This document shows positions 244 through 9,175 of a stretch of DNA of 64,000 nucleotides, piece after piece (within the stretch, counting starts at the first letter, position 1; each line of letters opens with the position of its first letter). A model generated the notes under the pieces. The model was not told the DNA's origin. It searched no databases and saw only the letters and a program-made list of their open reading frames with translations. The position numbers and the translations under genes are program-made. Source of the stretch: Pseudomonas sp. LFM046 (GTDB lineage: Bacteria; Pseudomonadota; Gammaproteobacteria; Pseudomonadales; Pseudomonadaceae); assembly GCF_000949385.2 (NCBI RefSeq), contig NZ_JYKO02000001.1:514161-578160 (forward strand), given 5' to 3'.

Positions 244-906
244 TCACAGCTCGGAGATGGTCCTGTACTCCGCGCCCAACTCCTCCGCCAGCTTCTTCGC
301 ACGCCCCAGGCGAATCGGCCCCCCCTCGATATTCACCAGCAGCGTCGGGCAACCCAGCGGCTCCAGCGCCGGCCATTCCTTCAAACGCCCATCGGTGAGG
401 ATCAGCATTCGCTGCTCCTCGGCCGGCTTCTGTCGTTGCCGACGTGCCAGCCAGTGTGCTGATTGCTGCAGCGCGTCGATCAATGGAGTGCCACCGCCGG
501 CACCAAGTTCGGCGAGCCAGTGGTGCAGGGCGGGGGAGGCTTTCTGACCCTGCCAGAGCCACTGTGGCTGGCGCCCAGTGGCGTGGAGCACGGCGAGGCG
601 GGTGCGCTGGCGATAGGCGGCGTCGAACAGATTGGCCAGCAGCCCCTTGGCCTGGGCCAGCGCGCCGTGGCGGCGGGTGGAGGCGGAGGCATCGACGACC
701 ACCAGCCAGAGCTGGTCAGGGCGCTGGCTGCGCGGCGCACGCACCAGGTCGGCGGCCTTGCGCGGGCGACCGCGCAGGAGCGTGGGCAACCACTGGATTG
801 CACCATTGGCGCCCGAGCGGCGAGCGCCGCTGCGGCCGTTGCCAAGAGTGCCGGGTCTGGGCCGGGCACCCGCCCCTGTGACCGTACGCGGGCGGATGCT
901 CAGGGC
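244..906 (-). CDS. ChlD-like VWA domain, read by -1 frameshifting from the upstream ChlI-like frame
   Basis: This is the C-terminal half of a chelatase medium subunit. The frame encodes a basic Pro/Arg/Gly linker and then a von Willebrand A domain. A full MIDAS metal site is visible: DASAS (D-x-S-x-S), the Thr of GGGTPL, and the Asp of LTDGR. No ATG or GTG exists between the upstream in-frame stop and the VWA domain. The only conventional start is a TTG near 789, which would cut off the linker. Entry at 906 by a -1 shift from the ChlI-like frame instead gives a continuous protein of about 552 residues, the usual AAA-linker-VWA layout of ChlD/BchD. With CobN it would form the ATP-dependent cobalt chelatase. 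A sequencing frameshift is the alternative, but the slip site argues against it. Confidence 0.8.
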
Positions 907-912
907 TTTTTT
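868..912 (-). promoter_or_regulatory. Programmed -1 ribosomal frameshift signal (A AAA AAG plus downstream stem)
   Basis: On the minus strand the heptamer A AAA AAG (906-912) lies in the correct phase as CCA AAA AAG, followed by CCC TGA. A slip by one base gives AAA AAA GCC CTG and joins the VWA frame exactly. Eight bases downstream, ATCCGCCC (890-897) can pair with GGGCGGGT (868-875), with one U:G pair, to form an 8-bp stem with a 14-base loop. That is a suitable position for a stimulatory structure. I see no strong upstream Shine-Dalgarno-like stimulator. The heptamer is the one used by E. coli dnaX. Confidence 0.8.
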
Positions 913-1901
913 GGCCAGCGCGGCAGGTCGCGCCGTTCACCCATGGGCACCGCGTGTGCCGGCAATTCGCCCCATTGGCCTTCGCCACCGGATGCCTGCG
1001 ATTGCGAGCCAGCGGGCGGGGACTGCGGCGGCTGGGACGCGGGCGGCGGCGTATGAGTACGGCGATGAGCCAGCGCGAAATGCTCGACGGCGTCGATATC
1101 CGCCGCCTCGATCCGCTCGGCACCTCGCCAGGCGGCATGGGCGCGGGCGGCACGCAGCCAGACCAGGTCGGCGCGCAGGCCGTCGACTCCGGCGGCGAAG
1201 CAGCGCTGGGCGATGTCATCCAGGGCGGCATCGTCCAGCGGAATGTTCGCAAGACGTGCGCGGGCATCCTGGCAACGGTGGGCGAGGGCCTGTTGCTCGT
1301 CACTCCAGCGGGCGATGAAACCCTGCGGGTCGGCGTCGAATGCCAGGCGACGGCGGACGATCTCGGCGCGCTCGGCCGGTTGTGGCTGGCCGTCCTGCAG
1401 TACCTTGAGACCAAAGCGGTCCAGCAGCTGTGGGCGCAGTTCGCCTTCCTCGGGGTTCATCGTGCCGATCAACACAAAGCGCGCCGCGTGGCGGTGGGAG
1501 ATGCCGTCGCGCTCCACCTGGTTCACGCCGCTGGCGGCTACATCCAGCAGCAGGTCCACCAGGTGGTCGGGCAGCAGGTTCACTTCATCCACGTAGAGCA
1601 CGCCGCCGTGGGCCTTGGCCAGCACGCCGGGGGAGAAGCGGGCGCGGCCTTCGCCGAGTGCGGCGTCCAGATCCAGGGTGCCGACGATGCGTTCCTCGCT
1701 GGCGCCCAGCGGCAGGGTGACGAAGATGCCGTCCGGCAGCAGTTCGGCAATGCCCCGGGCCAGGGTGGACTTGGCCATGCCGCGCGGACCCTCGATCAGC
1801 ACGCCGCCAATGGCCGGGTCGATGGCCGCGAGGTAGAGCGCCAGTTTCAGCTCGTCGGCGCCGACGACGGCGCTCAGGGGGAAGTTGGGAAGCTCGGACA
1901 T
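900..1901 (-). CDS. ChlI-like AAA+ chelatase subunit (short, unshifted product)
   Basis: A 333-residue AAA+ ATPase of the magnesium/cobalt chelatase family. The P-loop is GPRGMAKST (around residue 40), Walker B is LYVDEVNLL, sensor 1 lies in IGTMNPEEG, and the arginine-finger segment is LLDRFGL. The C-terminus is a Pro/Gln/Ser-rich linker, normally seen between the AAA and VWA domains of ChlD, so this frame looks like the N-terminal part of a longer protein. The ATG at 1901 is chosen because AGGA lies just upstream and the protein begins with the family-typical [10 protein letters not shown]. The stop directly follows a frameshift heptamer. The unshifted product could serve as the small subunit and the shifted one as the medium subunit. 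The gene is divergent from the DAHP synthase. Confidence 0.88.
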
Positions 1902-2024: not shown

Positions 2025-2144
2025 ATGCCGCACCTCGCTTCCACTTCGCTCACCGCTCGCCAGGCTCAGGCCGTGGCGCGTGTGCGTGTGGCCGCTGCGG
2101 CCAGCTATTTCTATGGGTATTGGTTTAGCCACGGGCTGGCCTGA
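2025..2144 (+). CDS. Aromatic-rich leader peptide for attenuation of DAHP synthase
   Basis: A 39-codon open frame starts at ATG 2025 with GGAG seven bases upstream, and ends in TGA at 2142-2144. Residues 28-34 are YFYGYWF: six aromatics in seven positions (Tyr, Phe, Tyr, Tyr, Trp, Phe). An aromatic run just before a hairpin array and an intrinsic terminator is the arrangement of amino-acid attenuator peptides such as TrpL and PheL. The next long gene is the first enzyme of aromatic amino-acid synthesis, so the readout fits. The codons for Gly-Tyr lie inside one arm of the first hairpin, TGGGTAT (2114-2120) with ATACCCA (2144-2150). A ribosome stalled for aromatic tRNA would therefore change the folding. 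Its role is inferred from layout. Confidence 0.78.
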
Positions 2145-2420: not shown

Positions 2421-3512
2421 ATGAATTCGCATCTATCCGTTCTGTCCACCACTGTACAGCCGCTCCACGCCATCGCGCTGGAGGCTGCCTTGCCGCCATC
2501 CCGCAGCACCCGCCCGCTGCCCACGCCCGCCGAACTGCGCCAGCGCCTGCCGCTGACCCATGAATGCTCCCGCCAGATCAGCGCCCAGCGCGATGCCGTG
2601 CGCGCCGTGCTGGACGGTGAGGATTCGCGCCTGCTGGTGGTGGTCGGTCCTTGCTCCATCCACGACCCGGAATCCGCCCTCGACTACGCCCGCCGCCTCG
2701 CTGCGCTGGCGCCGGAAGTCAGCGACCAGCTGCTGCTGGTGATGCGCGCCTACGTCGAAAAGCCGCGCACCACCGTGGGCTGGAAGGGCCTGGTGTATGA
2801 CCCGCACCTGGATGGCCGCAGCGACATGGCCGAGGGCCTGGCCCTGAGCCGCCGGCTGATGCTGGAGATGGCCGAGCTGGGTCTGCCGGTCGCGACCGAA
2901 CTGCTGCAGCCACTGGTGGCCGGTTACCTGGACGACTTGCTGAGCTGGGCCGCCATCGGCGCGCGCACCAGCGAATCGCAGATCCACCGCGAGATGGTCA
3001 GCGGCCTGGACCTGCCGGTGGGCTTCAAGAACGGAACGGACGGCAGCCTCGGCATCGCCACCGACGCCATGCGTGCGGCGGCCCATGCGCACCAGCACTT
3101 CGGCATCGACGCCCATGGCCGCCCGGCGCTGGTGGAGACAGCCGGCAACGCCGATACCCACCTGGTGCTGCGCGGTGGCCACAAGGGGCCTAACCATGAC
3201 GCCGCCAGTGTGCAGACGGCCCGCGAAGGGCTGGAGAAACTCGGCATCGCACCGCGCATCATGGTCGATTGCAGTCACGCCAACAGCGGCAAGGACCCGC
3301 TACGCCAGCCGGCGGTGCTGGAAGACGTGGTCAATCAACGCCTGGCCGGCCAGGACTCCCTGCGCGGCGTGATGATCGAGAGCCACCTGTTCGATGGTGC
3401 GCAGTCGCTGTCCTGCGAACTGCGCTACGGGGTTTCGGTTACCGATGGGTGCCTGGGCTGGGAAGGCACCGAGCGCATCCTGCGGGAGGCGGCAGAAAGG
3501 TTGCGGGGGTGA
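2421..3512 (+). CDS. aroF: Class I 3-deoxy-7-phosphoheptulonate (DAHP) synthase
   Basis: Condenses phosphoenolpyruvate and erythrose 4-phosphate to DAHP, the first step of the shikimate pathway, in the cytosol. At 363 residues it has the normal length of the AroF/AroG/AroH type. Visible family motifs include VVGPCSIHDP (metal Cys and PEP region), YVEKPRTTVGWKG, GARTSESQ, GFKNGTDG, LRGGHKGPN and DCSHANSGKD, and the C-terminal SVTDGCLGWE. ATG 2421 is preceded by GAGG. Sequence alone does not tell whether Tyr, Phe or Trp is the allosteric inhibitor, so the symbol is by similarity. Transcription appears to be attenuated by the leader upstream. It faces the end of cobN, as I recall for the same enzyme in P. 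aeruginosa. Confidence 0.93.
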   Translation: MNSHLSVLSTTVQPLHAIALEAALPPSRSTRPLPTPAELRQRLPLTHECSRQISAQRDAVRAVLDGEDSRLLVVVGPCSIHDPESALDYARRLAALAPEVSDQLLLVMRAYVEKPRTTVGWKGLVYDPHLDGRSDMAEGLALSRRLMLEMAELGLPVATELLQPLVAGYLDDLLSWAAIGARTSESQIHREMVSGLDLPVGFKNGTDGSLGIATDAMRAAAHAHQHFGIDAHGRPALVETAGNADTHLVLRGGHKGPNHDAASVQTAREGLEKLGIAPRIMVDCSHANSGKDPLRQPAVLEDVVNQRLAGQDSLRGVMIESHLFDGAQSLSCELRYGVSVTDGCLGWEGTERILREAAERLRG

Positions 3513-3618: not shown

Positions 3619-6600
3619 TCACTGCTCCTCACTATCCAGCAACAGGTTCTCGATCGCCTCGCGGTACGCCCCCGGGTTTTCCCAGAGCCCACGCTGCTGC
3701 GCTTCCACCAGCCGCTCGGCGATATCGCGCAGGGCTTCGGGGTTGTGTTGGTGGATGAACTCGCGGGTGTCTGCGTCCAGCAGGTAGGCGTCGGCCAGCA
3801 GCTGGTACTGGTGGTCGTCCACCAGTTCGCTGGTGGCGTCGAAAGCGAAGAGATAGTCCACCGTCGCGGCCAGCTCGAAGGCGCCCTTGTAGCCGTGGCG
3901 TTTCATGCCGGCGATCCACTTGGGATTGGCGGCGCGGGCGCGGACCACGCGAGCGAGTTCTTCCTTGAGCGAGCGTATGCGCGGCAGGTCCGGCTGGCTG
4001 TGATCGCCGTGGTAGCTGGCGACCTTCTCGCCGCGCAGGGTTTCGGCGGCGGCGAGCATGCCGCCCTGGAACTGGTAGTAGTCGTTGGAATCGAGGATGT
4101 CGTGTTCGCGGTTGTCCTGGTTCTGCAGCACCGCCTGGAGCCGCTCCAGGCGCTGGGCGAATCGTTCCCGCGCTGGCGTCCCCGCATCCTGGGCGCCGTA
4201 GGCATAGCCGCCCCAGTTGAGGTAGACCTCGGCCAGCTCGGCGCGGTCCTGCCATTGGCGTTCCTCGATAGCGCCCTGCACGCCAGCGCCATACGCGCCG
4301 GGCTGAGCGCCGAACACCCGCCAGCCGGCCTGCAGGCGGGCGTCCTCGACGGCCAGGCCCTCGCTGGCGAGGCGTGCGCTTTCCTGCTTCACCCGTGCGG
4401 CCAGTGGGTTCATGTCCTCGGGCTCGTCCAGTTCCGCTACGGCTTGTACGGCAGCGTCGAACAGGCGGATCAGGTTGGCGAAGGCATCGCGGAAGAAGCC
4501 TGACACGCGCAAGGTCACGTCCACACGCGGACGGTCCAGCAGCGACAGCGGCAGGATCTCGAAATCCTCCACCCGTTGGCTGCCGGCCTGCCACACCGGG
4601 CGCACGCCCATCAGTGCCAGGGCCTGGGCGATATCGTCACCGCCGGTGCGCATGGTGGCGGTGCCCCACACGGAAATACCGAGCTGGCGCAGGTGGTCGC
4701 CGTGGTCCTGCAAGTGGCGCTCCAGCAGCAGGCTGGCGGACTGGAAGCCCAGGCGCCAGGCGGTGGGCGTGGGCAAATTGCGCACGTCCACGGTGAAGAA
4801 GTTGCGGCCGGTGGGCAGCACGTCGAGTCGCCCGCGACTGGGGGCGCCGCTGGGCCCGGGCGGGACGAAGCGGCCTTCAAGGGCGGCCAGCACGGCGCCG
4901 ATTTCGGCAGCGCCACAGGCGTCCAGGGTCGGCGCGATCACCGCGCGCAGGGTGTGGATAACCGCATCGCTCGCCGGTCCGATGGACTCGGTTTCCGGCG
5001 CCGTGATCATCCGCAAGGCCAGCAGTTCCAGGCGCTCGCGGGTATCGCCATTGCTGCGCCAGGGTTCAGCGCTGGCCCCTTCCAGCACGGCCGGACGCGG
5101 GCCTTGCCAGGGCTCGGCCCAGTTCAGGTCCAGTGGGTCGGTGCCCAGTGCCAGGTCGGTGGACAGGGCGCGTAGCAGGCTGGCGTTGGCGCCTTTGCCG
5201 TCGCCACGGGGGATGCGCACCAGTGACAGCAGGGTGTCGTCCCGCAGGCGCCCGGCGGGGGACTCGCCGAATACATGGAGACCGTCGCGGATCTGCGATT
5301 CCTTGAGGTCGCAGAGGTAGGCATCCAGTTGCGGCAGCCAGCTTTCCGGGTCGTCGTTGATGACGAGATTCAGCTCGCGGTCGAGCGCGGTGGCTTTCAC
5401 CAGCTCGAGGATTTCCCCGCGCAATTGCACGGCCCGGCGTGGGTCGAGCAGGGAGGCGTCGTAGTACTCGTCGGCCAGGCGCTCCAGGTCCCGCAGCGGG
5501 CCGTAGTTCTCGGCGCGGGTCAAGGGTGGCATCAGGTGGTCGATGATCACCGCCTGGGCGCGGCGCTTGGCCTGGGCGCCTTCGCCGGGGTCGTTGACGA
5601 TGAACGGGTAGAGGTTCGGCAGCGGGCCCATCACCGCATCCGGCCAGCATTCGGCGGACAGGCCGACGCCCTTGCCCGGCAGCCATTCCAGGTTGCCGTG
5701 CTTGCCAACGTGGATCAGCGCGTCAGCGGCGAACACTTCCCGCAGCCAGAAGTAGAAGGCGAGGTAGCCGTGGGGCGGTACCAGGTCGGCGTCGTGGTAG
5801 ATGGCCGCTGGGTCCAGTTGGTAGCCGCGGGCGGGTTGGATGCCGACGAAGGCCAGGCCGAAACGCAGACCGGCGACCATCATGCGGCCGCTGCGGAACA
5901 TCGGGTCCTGCTGCGGCTCGCCCCAGCGCTCGCGTACGGCGCGCTGGTTGGCCTCGGGCAGGCGGACGAAGCAGGCGAGGTAGTCGGAGAGGGCCAGGCT
6001 CTGGGCGCACGGGCGCAGGTCCAGGCTGTCCAGGTCGTTGCTGACGCCGCCCAGCAGGCTGTGGATAAGCGCGGTGCCGCTGTCCGGCAGGCCGGCGAGC
6101 GGATAGCCCTCGGCCTCCAGCGCGCGGAGGATGTTCAGGGCGGCGGCCGGGGTGTCCAGCCCCACGCCGTTGCCGATGCGGCCGTCGCGGGTGGGGTAGT
6201 TGGCGAGGATCAGGGCGACGCGCTTGTCGGCATTACGCTTGTTCGCCAATTCGCACCAGCGCCGCCCCAGTTCGGCGACGAAGTCCATGCGCTCCAGCTG
6301 CGGCAGGTAGCAGACGACGTCGCTCTGGCTGCGTTCGCTGCGCCAGGCCAGGCCCTTGAAGCTGATGGGGCGGGTGATGATGCGGCCGTCCAGTTCCGGC
6401 AGGGCGATGTGCATGGCCAGGTCGCGCGGGCCCAGGCCTTGGGGGTTGTCGCACCACAGCGGTTCGTTGTCCAGGGAGCAGATGGCCTGCAGCACCGGGA
6501 TATCGCGGCGGAAGGGGCGCAGGCTGGGGGCGTCGGGGTTGGACTGGGCGAAGCCAGTGGTGTTGATGATCAGGCCGGCTTCGGCAGCATCGAGCCAGTC

Positions 6601-7353
6601 TTCCACCGTCGCCAGGCACTCGGCTTCCTTGAGGCTGGCCACGGCGATGGGCAGGGGATTGAGACCCTGGGCCGCCAGGCGCTCGCAGAACGCGTCGATA
6701 AAGGCCGTGTTCGCGGCCTGCAGGTGGGTGCGGTAGAAGAGCAGGGCGGCCACCGGCTGGTCCGGCTGCCAGTCGGCTTTCCACTCCTCCAGCCGCGCAT
6801 TTCGCAGGCGCGGGTGGTACAGGGCGACCCGCGGCAGCGCTCGGGGCTCGTTCCAGGGGTAATCGCGGCCGAGCCAGCGCCCGGCCAGGCAGTTGAAGAA
6901 TTGCCGGGCATTGTCCAGGCCGCCCTGGCGCAGGTACTGCCAGAGGCGCTCGGCATCTTCGGCCGGCACGTTGCAGAGGCTGGCCAGTTCCGGGTCGGGG
7001 CGGTCGTCGCCGGGGACCAGGATCAGCTTCGCGCCGCGTTCGGCCAGGGCCACCAGTTGCTCGATGCCGTAGCGCCAATAGCTCACCCCGCCGTGCACCG
7101 AGATGAAGATGACCTTGGCGTGCTGCAGCACCTCGTCCACGTAGAGGTCCACCGAGGCGTGGTTCTGCAGCTGCATGGGGTTGGCCAGGCGCAGGCTGGG
7201 GAAGCCTTCGGGGAGTTCGCGGGCGGTTTCGGCCAGCAGCGCCAGGTGCGAATCGCCGCTGCAGAGGATCACCAGCTCGGCGGGCGTCTGGGCCAGGTGG
7301 GCGATGCCGTCGTCGGGGACGAAGCCGCCGGGTTGGGTGCGCAGGAGGTGCAT
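3619..7353 (-). CDS. cobN: CobN, large subunit of aerobic-type cobalt chelatase
   Basis: A 1244-residue cytosolic protein that binds hydrogenobyrinic acid a,c-diamide and, with the AAA+ and VWA subunits, inserts cobalt at the cost of ATP. The length matches CobN (about 1250). Recognisable blocks are GKHGNLEWLPGKG (about residue 550), YPFIVNDPGEGAQAKRR, GNGVGLDTPAA and the C-terminal HGYKGAFE. CobS/CobT-type partners are absent here; the chlI/chlD-like gene about 2 kb further on probably supplies them. ATG 7353 starts a conserved MHLLRTQPGGFVPDD. It follows cobW with about 100 bases holding a palindromic repeat, and should lie on the transcript controlled by the cobalamin riboswitch at 8.7 kb. 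Confidence 0.95.
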   Translation of the reverse strand: MHLLRTQPGGFVPDDGIAHLAQTPAELVILCSGDSHLALLAETARELPEGFPSLRLANPMQLQNHASVDLYVDEVLQHAKVIFISVHGGVSYWRYGIEQLVALAERGAKLILVPGDDRPDPELASLCNVPAEDAERLWQYLRQGGLDNARQFFNCLAGRWLGRDYPWNEPRALPRVALYHPRLRNARLEEWKADWQPDQPVAALLFYRTHLQAANTAFIDAFCERLAAQGLNPLPIAVASLKEAECLATVEDWLDAAEAGLIINTTGFAQSNPDAPSLRPFRRDIPVLQAICSLDNEPLWCDNPQGLGPRDLAMHIALPELDGRIITRPISFKGLAWRSERSQSDVVCYLPQLERMDFVAELGRRWCELANKRNADKRVALILANYPTRDGRIGNGVGLDTPAAALNILRALEAEGYPLAGLPDSGTALIHSLLGGVSNDLDSLDLRPCAQSLALSDYLACFVRLPEANQRAVRERWGEPQQDPMFRSGRMMVAGLRFGLAFVGIQPARGYQLDPAAIYHDADLVPPHGYLAFYFWLREVFAADALIHVGKHGNLEWLPGKGVGLSAECWPDAVMGPLPNLYPFIVNDPGEGAQAKRRAQAVIIDHLMPPLTRAENYGPLRDLERLADEYYDASLLDPRRAVQLRGEILELVKATALDRELNLVINDDPESWLPQLDAYLCDLKESQIRDGLHVFGESPAGRLRDDTLLSLVRIPRGDGKGANASLLRALSTDLALGTDPLDLNWAEPWQGPRPAVLEGASAEPWRSNGDTRERLELLALRMITAPETESIGPASDAVIHTLRAVIAPTLDACGAAEIGAVLAALEGRFVPPGPSGAPSRGRLDVLPTGRNFFTVDVRNLPTPTAWRLGFQSASLLLERHLQDHGDHLRQLGISVWGTATMRTGGDDIAQALALMGVRPVWQAGSQRVEDFEILPLSLLDRPRVDVTLRVSGFFRDAFANLIRLFDAAVQAVAELDEPEDMNPLAARVKQESARLASEGLAVEDARLQAGWRVFGAQPGAYGAGVQGAIEERQWQDRAELAEVYLNWGGYAYGAQDAGTPARERFAQRLERLQAVLQNQDNREHDILDSNDYYQFQGGMLAAAETLRGEKVASYHGDHSQPDLPRIRSLKEELARVVRARAANPKWIAGMKRHGYKGAFELAATVDYLFAFDATSELVDDHQYQLLADAYLLDADTREFIHQHNPEALRDIAERLVEAQQRGLWENPGAYREAIENLLLDSEEQ

Positions 7354-7460: not shown

Positions 7461-8513
7461 TCACGCCAGCGCGGTACGCAGCTCGTTGGCGATGGCCGCC
7501 TGATCCAGTTCCTGGCCGATGACCACCAGGCGGGTGCTGCGGGTTTCGCCTTCCAGCCACTTGCGGTCGAAGTGCTTGTCGAAGCGCTTGCCGACGCCCT
7601 GGATCAAGAGGCGCATGGGCTTGCCGGGAATGGCAGCGAAGCCCTTGATGCGCAGGATGGCGTGGCGCTCCACGAGTTGGCCGAGGGCTGCCAGCAGGGC
7701 GGCTTCGTCCACTTCCGGCAGGTCGACGTGGAAGGAGTCGAACTCGTCGTGGTCGTGGTCCTCATGGCCTTCGTGATCATGGTGGGTGGGGCGGCTGTCG
7801 ATGTGCAATTCAGCTTCGGCATTCAGGCCCAGCAGCACGGAGAGCGGCAGCTTGCCGGCGCTGGCTTCGACGATCTTCACCGCCGGCGGCAATTCCTCGG
7901 CCACTTCGGCGCGTACGGCGGCCAGGGCTTCAGGGCTGAGCAGGTCGGCCTTGTTCAGCACCACCAGGTCGGCGCTGGCCAACTGGTCTTCGAACAGCTC
8001 GTGCAGCGGGGATTCGTGGTCGAGGTTCGGGTCCTGCTTGCGCTGCTCGTCCACCTGCTCGGGGTGGGCGGCGAAGGTGCCGGCGGCCACGGCGGGGCTG
8101 TCCACCACCGTGATCACCGCGTCGACGGTGCAGGCGTTGCGGATTTCCGGCCACTGGAAGGCCTGCACCAGGGGTTTGGGCAGGGCGAGGCCCGAGGTCT
8201 CGATGAGGATCTGGTCGAGGTCGCCGCGACGGGCCACCAGTTCGCGCATCACCGGGAAGAACTCTTCCTGCACGGTGCAGCACAGGCAGCCATTGGCCAG
8301 CTCGAAGACGCGGCCCACGGCTTCCTCTTCGGTGCAGCCGATGGAGCATTGCTTGAGGATTTCGCCGTCGATACCCAGTTCGCCGAACTCGTTGACGATC
8401 ACCGCGATGCGGCGGCCTTGGGCGTTGTCCAGCATGTGGCGGAGCAGGGTGGTTTTACCGGCGCCGAGGAAGCCGGTGACGATGGTGACGGGGAGTTTGG
8501 CCAGGGATTTCAT
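7461..8513 (-). CDS. cobW: CobW-family GTPase (putative cobalt chaperone of B12 synthesis)
   Basis: A 350-residue G3E-family GTPase thought to deliver Co(II) to the chelatase. The P-loop is GFLGAGKTT (residues 13-21), the conserved metal site is GCLCC, the guanine specificity motif is NKAD, and a His/Asp-rich segment (HHDHEGHEDHDHDE) lies between the GTPase and C-terminal domains. ATG 8513 gives the standard MKSLAKLPVTIVTGF start; further upstream the frame runs into riboswitch sequence. It is the first gene after a cobalamin riboswitch and precedes cobN in the same direction, so both are probably repressed by B12. Confidence 0.93.
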   Translation of the reverse strand: MKSLAKLPVTIVTGFLGAGKTTLLRHMLDNAQGRRIAVIVNEFGELGIDGEILKQCSIGCTEEEAVGRVFELANGCLCCTVQEEFFPVMRELVARRGDLDQILIETSGLALPKPLVQAFQWPEIRNACTVDAVITVVDSPAVAAGTFAAHPEQVDEQRKQDPNLDHESPLHELFEDQLASADLVVLNKADLLSPEALAAVRAEVAEELPPAVKIVEASAGKLPLSVLLGLNAEAELHIDSRPTHHDHEGHEDHDHDEFDSFHVDLPEVDEAALLAALGQLVERHAILRIKGFAAIPGKPMRLLIQGVGKRFDKHFDRKWLEGETRSTRLVVIGQELDQAAIANELRTALA

Positions 8514-8611
8514 GCGCGCCTCTGCGTGGTCGGTCGGCGGGCATGACGAGCGCAGCGGGGAGAGCCCCGCGCAACGGATTCGCCACCGGATCACCCCGCC
8601 CGGTTGTCTGG

Positions 8612-8800
8612 AAATTCGTCGAGGCAGGTCTCCTGGCTCACGACCCTGCGCGTGGCGCGGCACCTTCGCCTTCCCGCTTTCGCAGTGGCATTTCGAAGGG
8701 CCCGGGGGCGTTCACAGTTGCGGGGGCAGCCGTGGCCTTGACCACGTTCCCTCTTAGCTCCGGCCCATGACCGGAGAACCTCGAAAGGGCGAAGGCTACG
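8612..8800 (-). promoter_or_regulatory. Cobalamin riboswitch controlling cobW-cobN
   Basis: Read on the minus strand the region contains the family landmarks in order: GGTTCTCCGG, AAGAGGGAAC, GCTGCCCCCGCAACTGT (the L4/J3-4 core), GCCACTGCG, GGGAAGGCGAAGG, and the B12 box AGCCAGGAGACCTGCC (complement of 8623-8638). Its 3' end is about 100 bases before the cobW start, leaving room for an expression platform. Adenosylcobalamin binding would lower expression. Confidence 0.93.
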
Positions 8801-8867
8801 CAGCGTCCAGGTGGCGGTCAATCACGGCAGTTGACGCTTGGTCGGACTCGTGATGTCCTAGCACGGT

Positions 8868-9066
8868 TTTTTCAGGTGCCCTGCGTCGCCGTACGCGGGG
8901 TGAAACGGGAAGTCGGTGCGTCCATCTCGGACAAGTCCGACGCTGCCCCCGCAACGGTAAGCGACCGTAGGGTTAAGTACGCCACTGTGCCGATCCGGCA
9001 TGGGAAGGCATGCCCATCCTGCCCCTGGCAGGCGTCGCAAGCCCGGAGACCGGCCTGATCACGTTT
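8868..9066 (+). promoter_or_regulatory. Cobalamin riboswitch controlling cbtB-cbtA-cobE-cobM
   Basis: On the plus strand the landmarks are CAGGTGCCCTGCG, GTGAAACGGGAAGTCGGTGC, GCTGCCCCCGCAACGGTAAG (about 8941-8960), GCCACTGTG, CATGGGAAGGC, and the B12 box GCAAGCCCGGAGACCGGCC (about 9037-9055). It lies about 110 bases before cbtB. With the divergent copy on the other strand it gives both sides of this B12 locus their own sensor. Confidence 0.93.
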
Positions 9067-9175
9067 TGGCAACCCGCGGTGGGCGGGCGCAAGCCGGAAA
9101 TCTGGGTGCCTGTGCGCCCGCTTCCCTCGCGCGCGTTCCGCTGCCGGTATCACACACACTGCAGAGGGAACCTTC

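Follow-up and report, generated by a model that had tools for sequence, protein, structure and literature searches.

In dnaX of E. coli (tau/gamma), an A AAA AAG heptamer followed by a downstream hairpin leads to the formation of a pair of AAA+ proteins from a single gene; there, the slip yields the shorter protein and is helped by an upstream Shine-Dalgarno element. In the chelatases BchIDH and CobST, the I and D subunits function as distinct proteins. Frameshifting in chelatase genes has been described. Antonov 2013 (PMC3711429) reports a −1 shift in 23 magnesium-chelatase genes, Pseudomonas being one of the six genera concerned, and gives reporter results for three relatives (63, 40 and 10 % shifting, cassettes with 11, 9 and 7 A). 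In Atkins 2016 (PMC5009743), the A_AAA_AAR site is reported to be under purifying selection, the stem-loop of P. protegens is printed, the sequence of the structure is described as not strongly conserved, and regulation is said to merit study. For cobalt chelatase, the idea of two subunits from one gene is stated in Kuznetsov 2022 (PMC9227772; excerpt). Since Pseudomonas, the shift site and the hairpin are already in print, the phenomenon is known, in agreement with an earlier note on the present DNA which had referred to described frameshifting in chlD genes of cobN-containing bacteria. The literature search, with Antonov 2020 (MBE msaa081) lying outside its range, yielded no frameshift measurement for the Pseudomonas junction of A6G and hairpin. 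The present analysis adds tests of codon identity and covariation, the association with cobN (272 of 272 genomes of the host family) and a caution from genomes with fused genes.

The window analysed here, a stretch of 64,000 nucleotides from Pseudomonas sp. LFM046, contains, within a vitamin B12 gene cluster, a chlI/chlD gene (Table 1) that very probably is of this frameshifted kind (fs-chlD), a slip at the heptamer yielding two products which work with CobN as an aerobic cobalt chelatase. It shares with the fs-chlD cluster the ChlI-like AAA domain in the zero frame, the VWA domain in the −1 frame, the A_AAA_AAR site, the presence of cobN and the absence of a separate small-subunit gene from the search results, and does not differ from it substantially; the cassettes measured in 2013 had 7, 9 or 11 A, whereas the window has A6G together with a covarying hairpin. 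In contrast to dnaX, the shift lengthens the protein and no clear upstream element is apparent. The arrangement of CobNST (large CobN, AAA+ small and VWA-bearing medium subunit) is retained, but the models for CobS and CobT match nothing here. The AAA and VWA domains are homologous to those of BchIDH magnesium chelatase (1g8p, 2x31), which has separate bchI and bchD genes instead of one gene near cobN.

Table 1 Features of the chelatase region (positions within the window)
Feature	Position	Strand	Basis or remark
-1 frame: linker and VWA domain, 220 residues post-shift	244..906	minus	stop 246-244
TTG, sole start-like codon of the VWA frame in the window	787..789	minus	ORF reading
Stem 3' arm GGGCGGGTGC	866..875	minus	pairs with 899-890
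Stem 5' arm GCATCCGCCC, 10 bp	890..899	minus	pairs with 875-866
Spacer CCCTGA including zero-frame stop TGA	900..905	minus	between heptamer and stem
ChlI-like AAA+ zero-frame ORF (short product)	900..1901	minus	333 codons/aa; TGA at 902-900
Slippery heptamer A AAA AAG, zero-frame phase	906..912	minus	junction reading and conservation in relatives
cobN, cobalt chelatase large subunit	3619..7353	minus	TIGR02257 1737 bits, curated cut-off 822
cobW (longest ORF)	7461..8663	minus	TIGR02475 564 bits, cut-off 332, for 7464-8540
Cobalamin riboswitch ahead of cobW-cobN	8606..8798	minus	RF00174, 108.8 bits

The zero frame, which carries the AAA domain, ends with the codons TGG CCA AAA AAG CCC TGA, such that the heptamer terminates three bases before the stop. 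The overlapping −1 frame with the VWA domain is open from just 34 bases ahead of this stop and would be read after a slip as K K A L S and onwards through to its own stop, the joined AAA and VWA product comprising 552 residues. The earlier note had placed an in-phase A AAA AAG just ahead of the ChlI-like stop, had given 333 residues without and 552 residues with a slip, and had seen no usable ATG or GTG in the VWA frame; the heptamer is indeed located there (912-906), both lengths were reproduced, and the −1 frame of the window offers ahead of the VWA domain neither ATG nor GTG, but a single TTG (789-787), which is probably not used as a start.

Among the NCBIfam models, the ChlI-like protein best matches TIGR02442 (putative cobaltochelatase, E 3e-123) and TIGR02030 (BchI/ChlI, E 6e-98). 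Both scores stay below the curated whole-protein cut-offs, as expected since the ORF represents one half of a split protein. Its closest solved chains are BchI (1g8p) and ChlI (8osf). The VWA domain is recognized by PF13519 (E 2e-7) and has 2x31_A (Mg-chelatase 60-kDa subunit, E 3e-6) as closest solved chain; 2x31 holds chains of both I and D subunits. MIDAS-like residues (DASAS, T, D) were identified by eye.

Downstream of the 6-base spacer, the RNA can form a 10-bp stem with one G-U pair and a 14-base loop (889-876). The stem proposed in the earlier note thus exists, but not with the dimensions given there (8 bp, beginning eight bases downstream); those 8 bp constitute the inner part of the 10-bp stem. 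In most of the relatives compared, the best stem begins 5 or 6 bases past the heptamer. Since the window's own 50-base fold is weak evidence by itself (z −1.79; 11 of 200 shuffles as good), it is the comparison with relatives that makes the hairpin convincing. In 60 distinct Pseudomonas-type sequences, the stem positions are paired in 96.0 % of 600 cells, while slid versions of the stem pair only in 33–60 %. Cells with double changes number 19 as compared to a shuffle mean of 7.2 (0 of 500 shuffles as high), 16 of them being changes from C-G to U-A at columns 18/43; shuffling overstates the significance of this covariation, the sequences being related. Two of the five covariation measures do not go beyond shuffling, i.e., the number of stem pairs with changes in both arms (3, a value attained in 54 of 500 shuffles) and that of further stem pair types (8, attained in 37 of 500), and pair 22/39 is broken in 15 of the 60 sequences. 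The sequences derive from 96 loci minus 11, i.e., 85, of which 60 are distinct; left out were loci lacking an A6G heptamer at a distance of ten bases from the stop (L082, L109, L111, L114) or with another loop length or distance (L088, L089, L091, L096, L099, L108, L110).

The 50 bases past the heptamer fold with a median z of −3.0 in the Pseudomonas type, 91 of 108 contexts being below −1.5, compared to 17 % of 200 control windows drawn from Pseudomonas-type genes among the first 40 contexts. Contexts of other types are often ordinary in this respect, with 7 of 22 below −1.5. In the Pseudomonas type, the downstream RNA structure is represented by a covarying stem, for which stimulation of the shift is putative. 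An upstream Shine-Dalgarno stimulator of the dnaX type was considered and rejected, since the 20 bases upstream of the heptamer display only a slight excess in anti-SD energy (median −3.2 versus −2.5 background; −6 or lower in 15 % versus 8 %).

Conservation was assessed with 178 relative loci, of which 145 have a VWA profile match in the −1 register. In 8 of these the VWA domain lies about 1 kb further on, reflecting an ordinary bchI followed by bchD, so that 137 frameshifted loci remain (67 from named records and 70 from genomes; 130 distinct 90-base contexts). The others are fused in frame (20), in the same frame but separate (2, bch type) or without assignment (11). These loci are the ones returned best first by the searches rather than a random sample, and one search of relatives kept 80 matching stretches out of at least 587. 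All 137 frameshifted loci possess an in-phase A AAA AAR that ends either immediately before the zero-frame stop or 3 bases ahead of it. A set of 96 loci used for closer comparison was obtained from 110 by leaving out 14, namely 8 fused ones, 3 without a stop in the available stretch (L095, L098, L100) and 3 in which no VWA was found (L017, L102, L116). From a further set of 26, L133 and L136 (no stop) and L135 (no VWA) were left out; 23 divergent loci were readable with VWA in −1.

The shift site reads AAA AAG in all 91 Pseudomonas-type genes, and its two Lys codons are the only ones among 184 conserved multi-codon columns to reach a codon identity of at least 0.99. Elsewhere in these genes, Lys is encoded by AAG (268) and AAA (114). 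For the VWA frame, a median dN/dS of 0.184 was obtained from 135 pairs of genus members, as compared to 1.46 and 3.09 for the other two frames, pointing to purifying selection on the −1 frame. The persistence of heptamer and stem in relatives, on which the earlier note had let its proposal depend, is thus evident for both elements, for the stem within the Pseudomonas type.

In a phylogenetic tree of 90 AAA domains, the frameshifted state needs at least 3 changes, of which the starred branches force only 1, and it forms one group in 0 % of 200 bootstrap trees; judged from these sequences, a single origin may apply. The records L097 and L089 (Pantoea sp. Cy-639, Paucimonas) carry genes of the Pseudomonas type which group within Pseudomonas in the AAA tree, and are mislabelled, contaminated or transferred. 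Matches also occur in 2 phage and 43 plasmid records. A chlI-VWA pair with heptamer and hairpin is found in L187 (OQ572414.1, 20214-24227), labelled as Pseudomonas phage Y13 (unverified), which may contain host DNA; a 308-kb plasmid of Azotobacter chroococcum (L188, NZ_CP066311.1) harbours cobN, the frameshifted gene and cobF.

The CobN protein encoded in the window passes the cut-off for CobN and not that for BchH. Between chlI and cobN, a DAHP synthase gene is located on the opposite strand. The genome (5.97 Mb, 4 contigs) contains no match to CobS (TIGR01650) or CobT (PF06213), the Caulobacter control being positive, and no second close ChlI relative, the next best match having E 1.2e-4 over 71 residues. 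Thus, cobN is present without a separate small-subunit gene and without the CobS and CobT of CobNST; the whole-genome search for cobS, cobT and a separate chlI that the earlier note had suggested found none of them.

A second cobalamin riboswitch (8857-9072, plus strand) is arranged back to back with the one preceding cobW and faces genes of the other strand. Ahead of the DAHP synthase gene (2421-3512), a 39-residue ORF (2025-2144, plus strand) overlaps the Rfam Pseudomonas 'sRNA P15' (RF00627, 2102-2222, plus strand) and is followed at about 2192-2228 by a terminator-like hairpin with a T run (by eye). This region resembles an aromatic-amino-acid attenuator more than a free sRNA.

Among 398 genomes of the host family, 272 have a match to the ChlI query at E ≤ 1e-60 and 321 a match to the CobN family at E ≤ 1e-3, and all 272 fall within the 321. 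CobT is found in 13 of the 398 (10 above the family cut-off), 7 of them among the 272. Reading of the DNA covered 65 of the 272 gene-bearing genomes: 61 have the −1 arrangement, 4 are without assignment (contig ends or no VWA found) and none is fused. The long open frame of one genome (G149) had been a candidate for a fused version within the family and was rejected, being −1 like the rest. A CobN relative does not imply the frameshifted gene, since none of the 49 genomes with a CobN-family match and without the frameshifted gene has a TIGR02442 match at E ≤ 1e-20. The CobN-family proteins of these 49 genomes are possibly HmuS-like or otherwise orphan CobN proteins.

According to the mechanism proposed here, ribosomes would ordinarily read past A AAA AAG and terminate at the TGA three bases on, releasing the 333-residue ChlI-like subunit. 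The hairpin 6 bases downstream would stall a fraction of them while two Lys tRNAs occupy the heptamer; the stalled ribosomes would then slip back by one base, miss the stop and continue into the VWA domain to yield the 552-residue ChlD-like subunit. At the level of sequence, the shift site with its phase and spacing, the hairpin, the selection acting on the −1 frame and the gene content are established; slipping in Pseudomonas sp. LFM046, its rate and the joining of both products to CobN are what we infer.

Frameshifting could take place with only the long product being of importance, the short one representing a by-product or a dose setter. This is unlikely, but receives some support from fused genes in other families. 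All 12 genomes with a fused gene that were searched in their entirety have a single ChlI-like match (E ≤ 1e-40; at most 6 candidates scored in each), so that these organisms apparently manage without a separate small subunit of the ChlI kind, such a subunit may not be required in every organism, and the need for both subunits is itself something that we infer. Moreover, most fused genes display no heptamer route to a short product, since an in-phase A AAA AAR past codon 200 is present in only 2 of 21 (L112, L154; both rich in A runs). Other in-phase heptamers occur in 6 more fused genes without a common position; a reverse signal, by which a slip would yield the short product, was rejected after these 21 genes had been checked. 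On the other hand, the I and D subunits of the homologous BchIDH and CobST systems work as two proteins, and all 137 frameshifted loci retain shift site plus stop although a one-base indel would fuse the frames. The fused genes may also do a different job, since cobN is found in the flank (1.5 to 3 kb) of 2 of 20 fused genes as compared to 105 of 137 frameshifted genes, flanks being so short that the window's own cobN lies just past such a flank; they may belong to another pathway, or CobN may be encoded elsewhere. The neighbours of two fused genes without cobN in the flank resemble, by eye, cbiQ, cbiO, cobO and cobB (L103) or cobB and cbiD (L115).

Very unlikely is the formation of the VWA domain as a separate protein from its own start or by translational coupling, e.g., from the TTG at 789-787, in the way databases annotate it. 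Apart from the availability of this TTG, the annotation of Azotobacter has separate genes for AAA and VWA (in A. chroococcum with the VWA gene starting at a CTG located 16 bases ahead of the zero-frame stop), PA2941 appears alone as VWFA protein in a proteomics table for PAO1 (PMC13411936, partial text), and 38 of the 96 loci have an ATG or GTG downstream of the heptamer. However, 58 have neither, 29 lack TTG there as well, and 6 are devoid of all three codons throughout the open VWA frame ahead of the domain. The most frequent downstream offset (+122) is shared by 30 loci, and a start codon at the offset of the window's TTG (+113) by 11. A start-like codon at −73 (48 loci) corresponds to conserved Gln-Trp codons (by eye) and is severed in the window by an intervening stop; median anti-SD energies at such positions range from 0.3 to −3.4, as compared to −4.3 at the chlI start of the window. 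Separate initiation would furthermore leave the invariant AAA AAG and the hairpin unexplained. Since the 96 loci have no start in common, an independent VWA start was rejected in favour of the slip, which explains the data better.

Transcriptional slippage on the A run, producing mRNAs with one base more or less, has very little probability. Runs of 7 to 10 A at 14 of the 137 sites would suit it; the other 123 have six A only, and codon phase and hairpin, neither of which is required for transcriptional slippage, are both kept. A sequencing error or decaying pseudogene, suggested by the frame change alone, is practically negligible, and chance or error was rejected because the heptamer is conserved with the same frame change in 137 loci, the hairpin displays compensatory changes and the −1 frame is under selection.

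The reading as a programmed −1 frameshift, put forward in the earlier note, is thus supported by site, spacer, covarying hairpin and selected −1 frame, and backed further by the lack of a conserved start codon, the genuine cobN nearby and the absence of cobS, cobT and a second chlI from the genome. PA2941 (VWFA protein) is taken by us as the putative VWA part of the frameshifted gene and PA2942 presumably is the AAA part, judged from the gene order. For a PAO1 mutant without BatR (PA3049, given as rmf, ribosome modulation factor), the table of decreased proteins, of which the text counts 21, includes PA2941, PA2942 not being named in the main text (PMC13411936, partial text). From this one table row, one may speculate that the ratio of short to long product is tuned by ribosome state rather than fixed, which is highly improbable at present. 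If true, i.e., with the AAA part unchanged in the BatR mutant, a ribosome factor would act on frameshifting itself and thereby tie B12 synthesis to the growth state.

The frameshifted gene shows how an aerobic cobalt chelatase may operate in many pseudomonads with no need for cobS, cobT or a chlI gene of its own, and accounts for the stray VWA protein without a good start codon in databases. With its conserved covarying hairpin, Pseudomonas represents a clean system for asking whether the subunit ratio is fixed or regulated.
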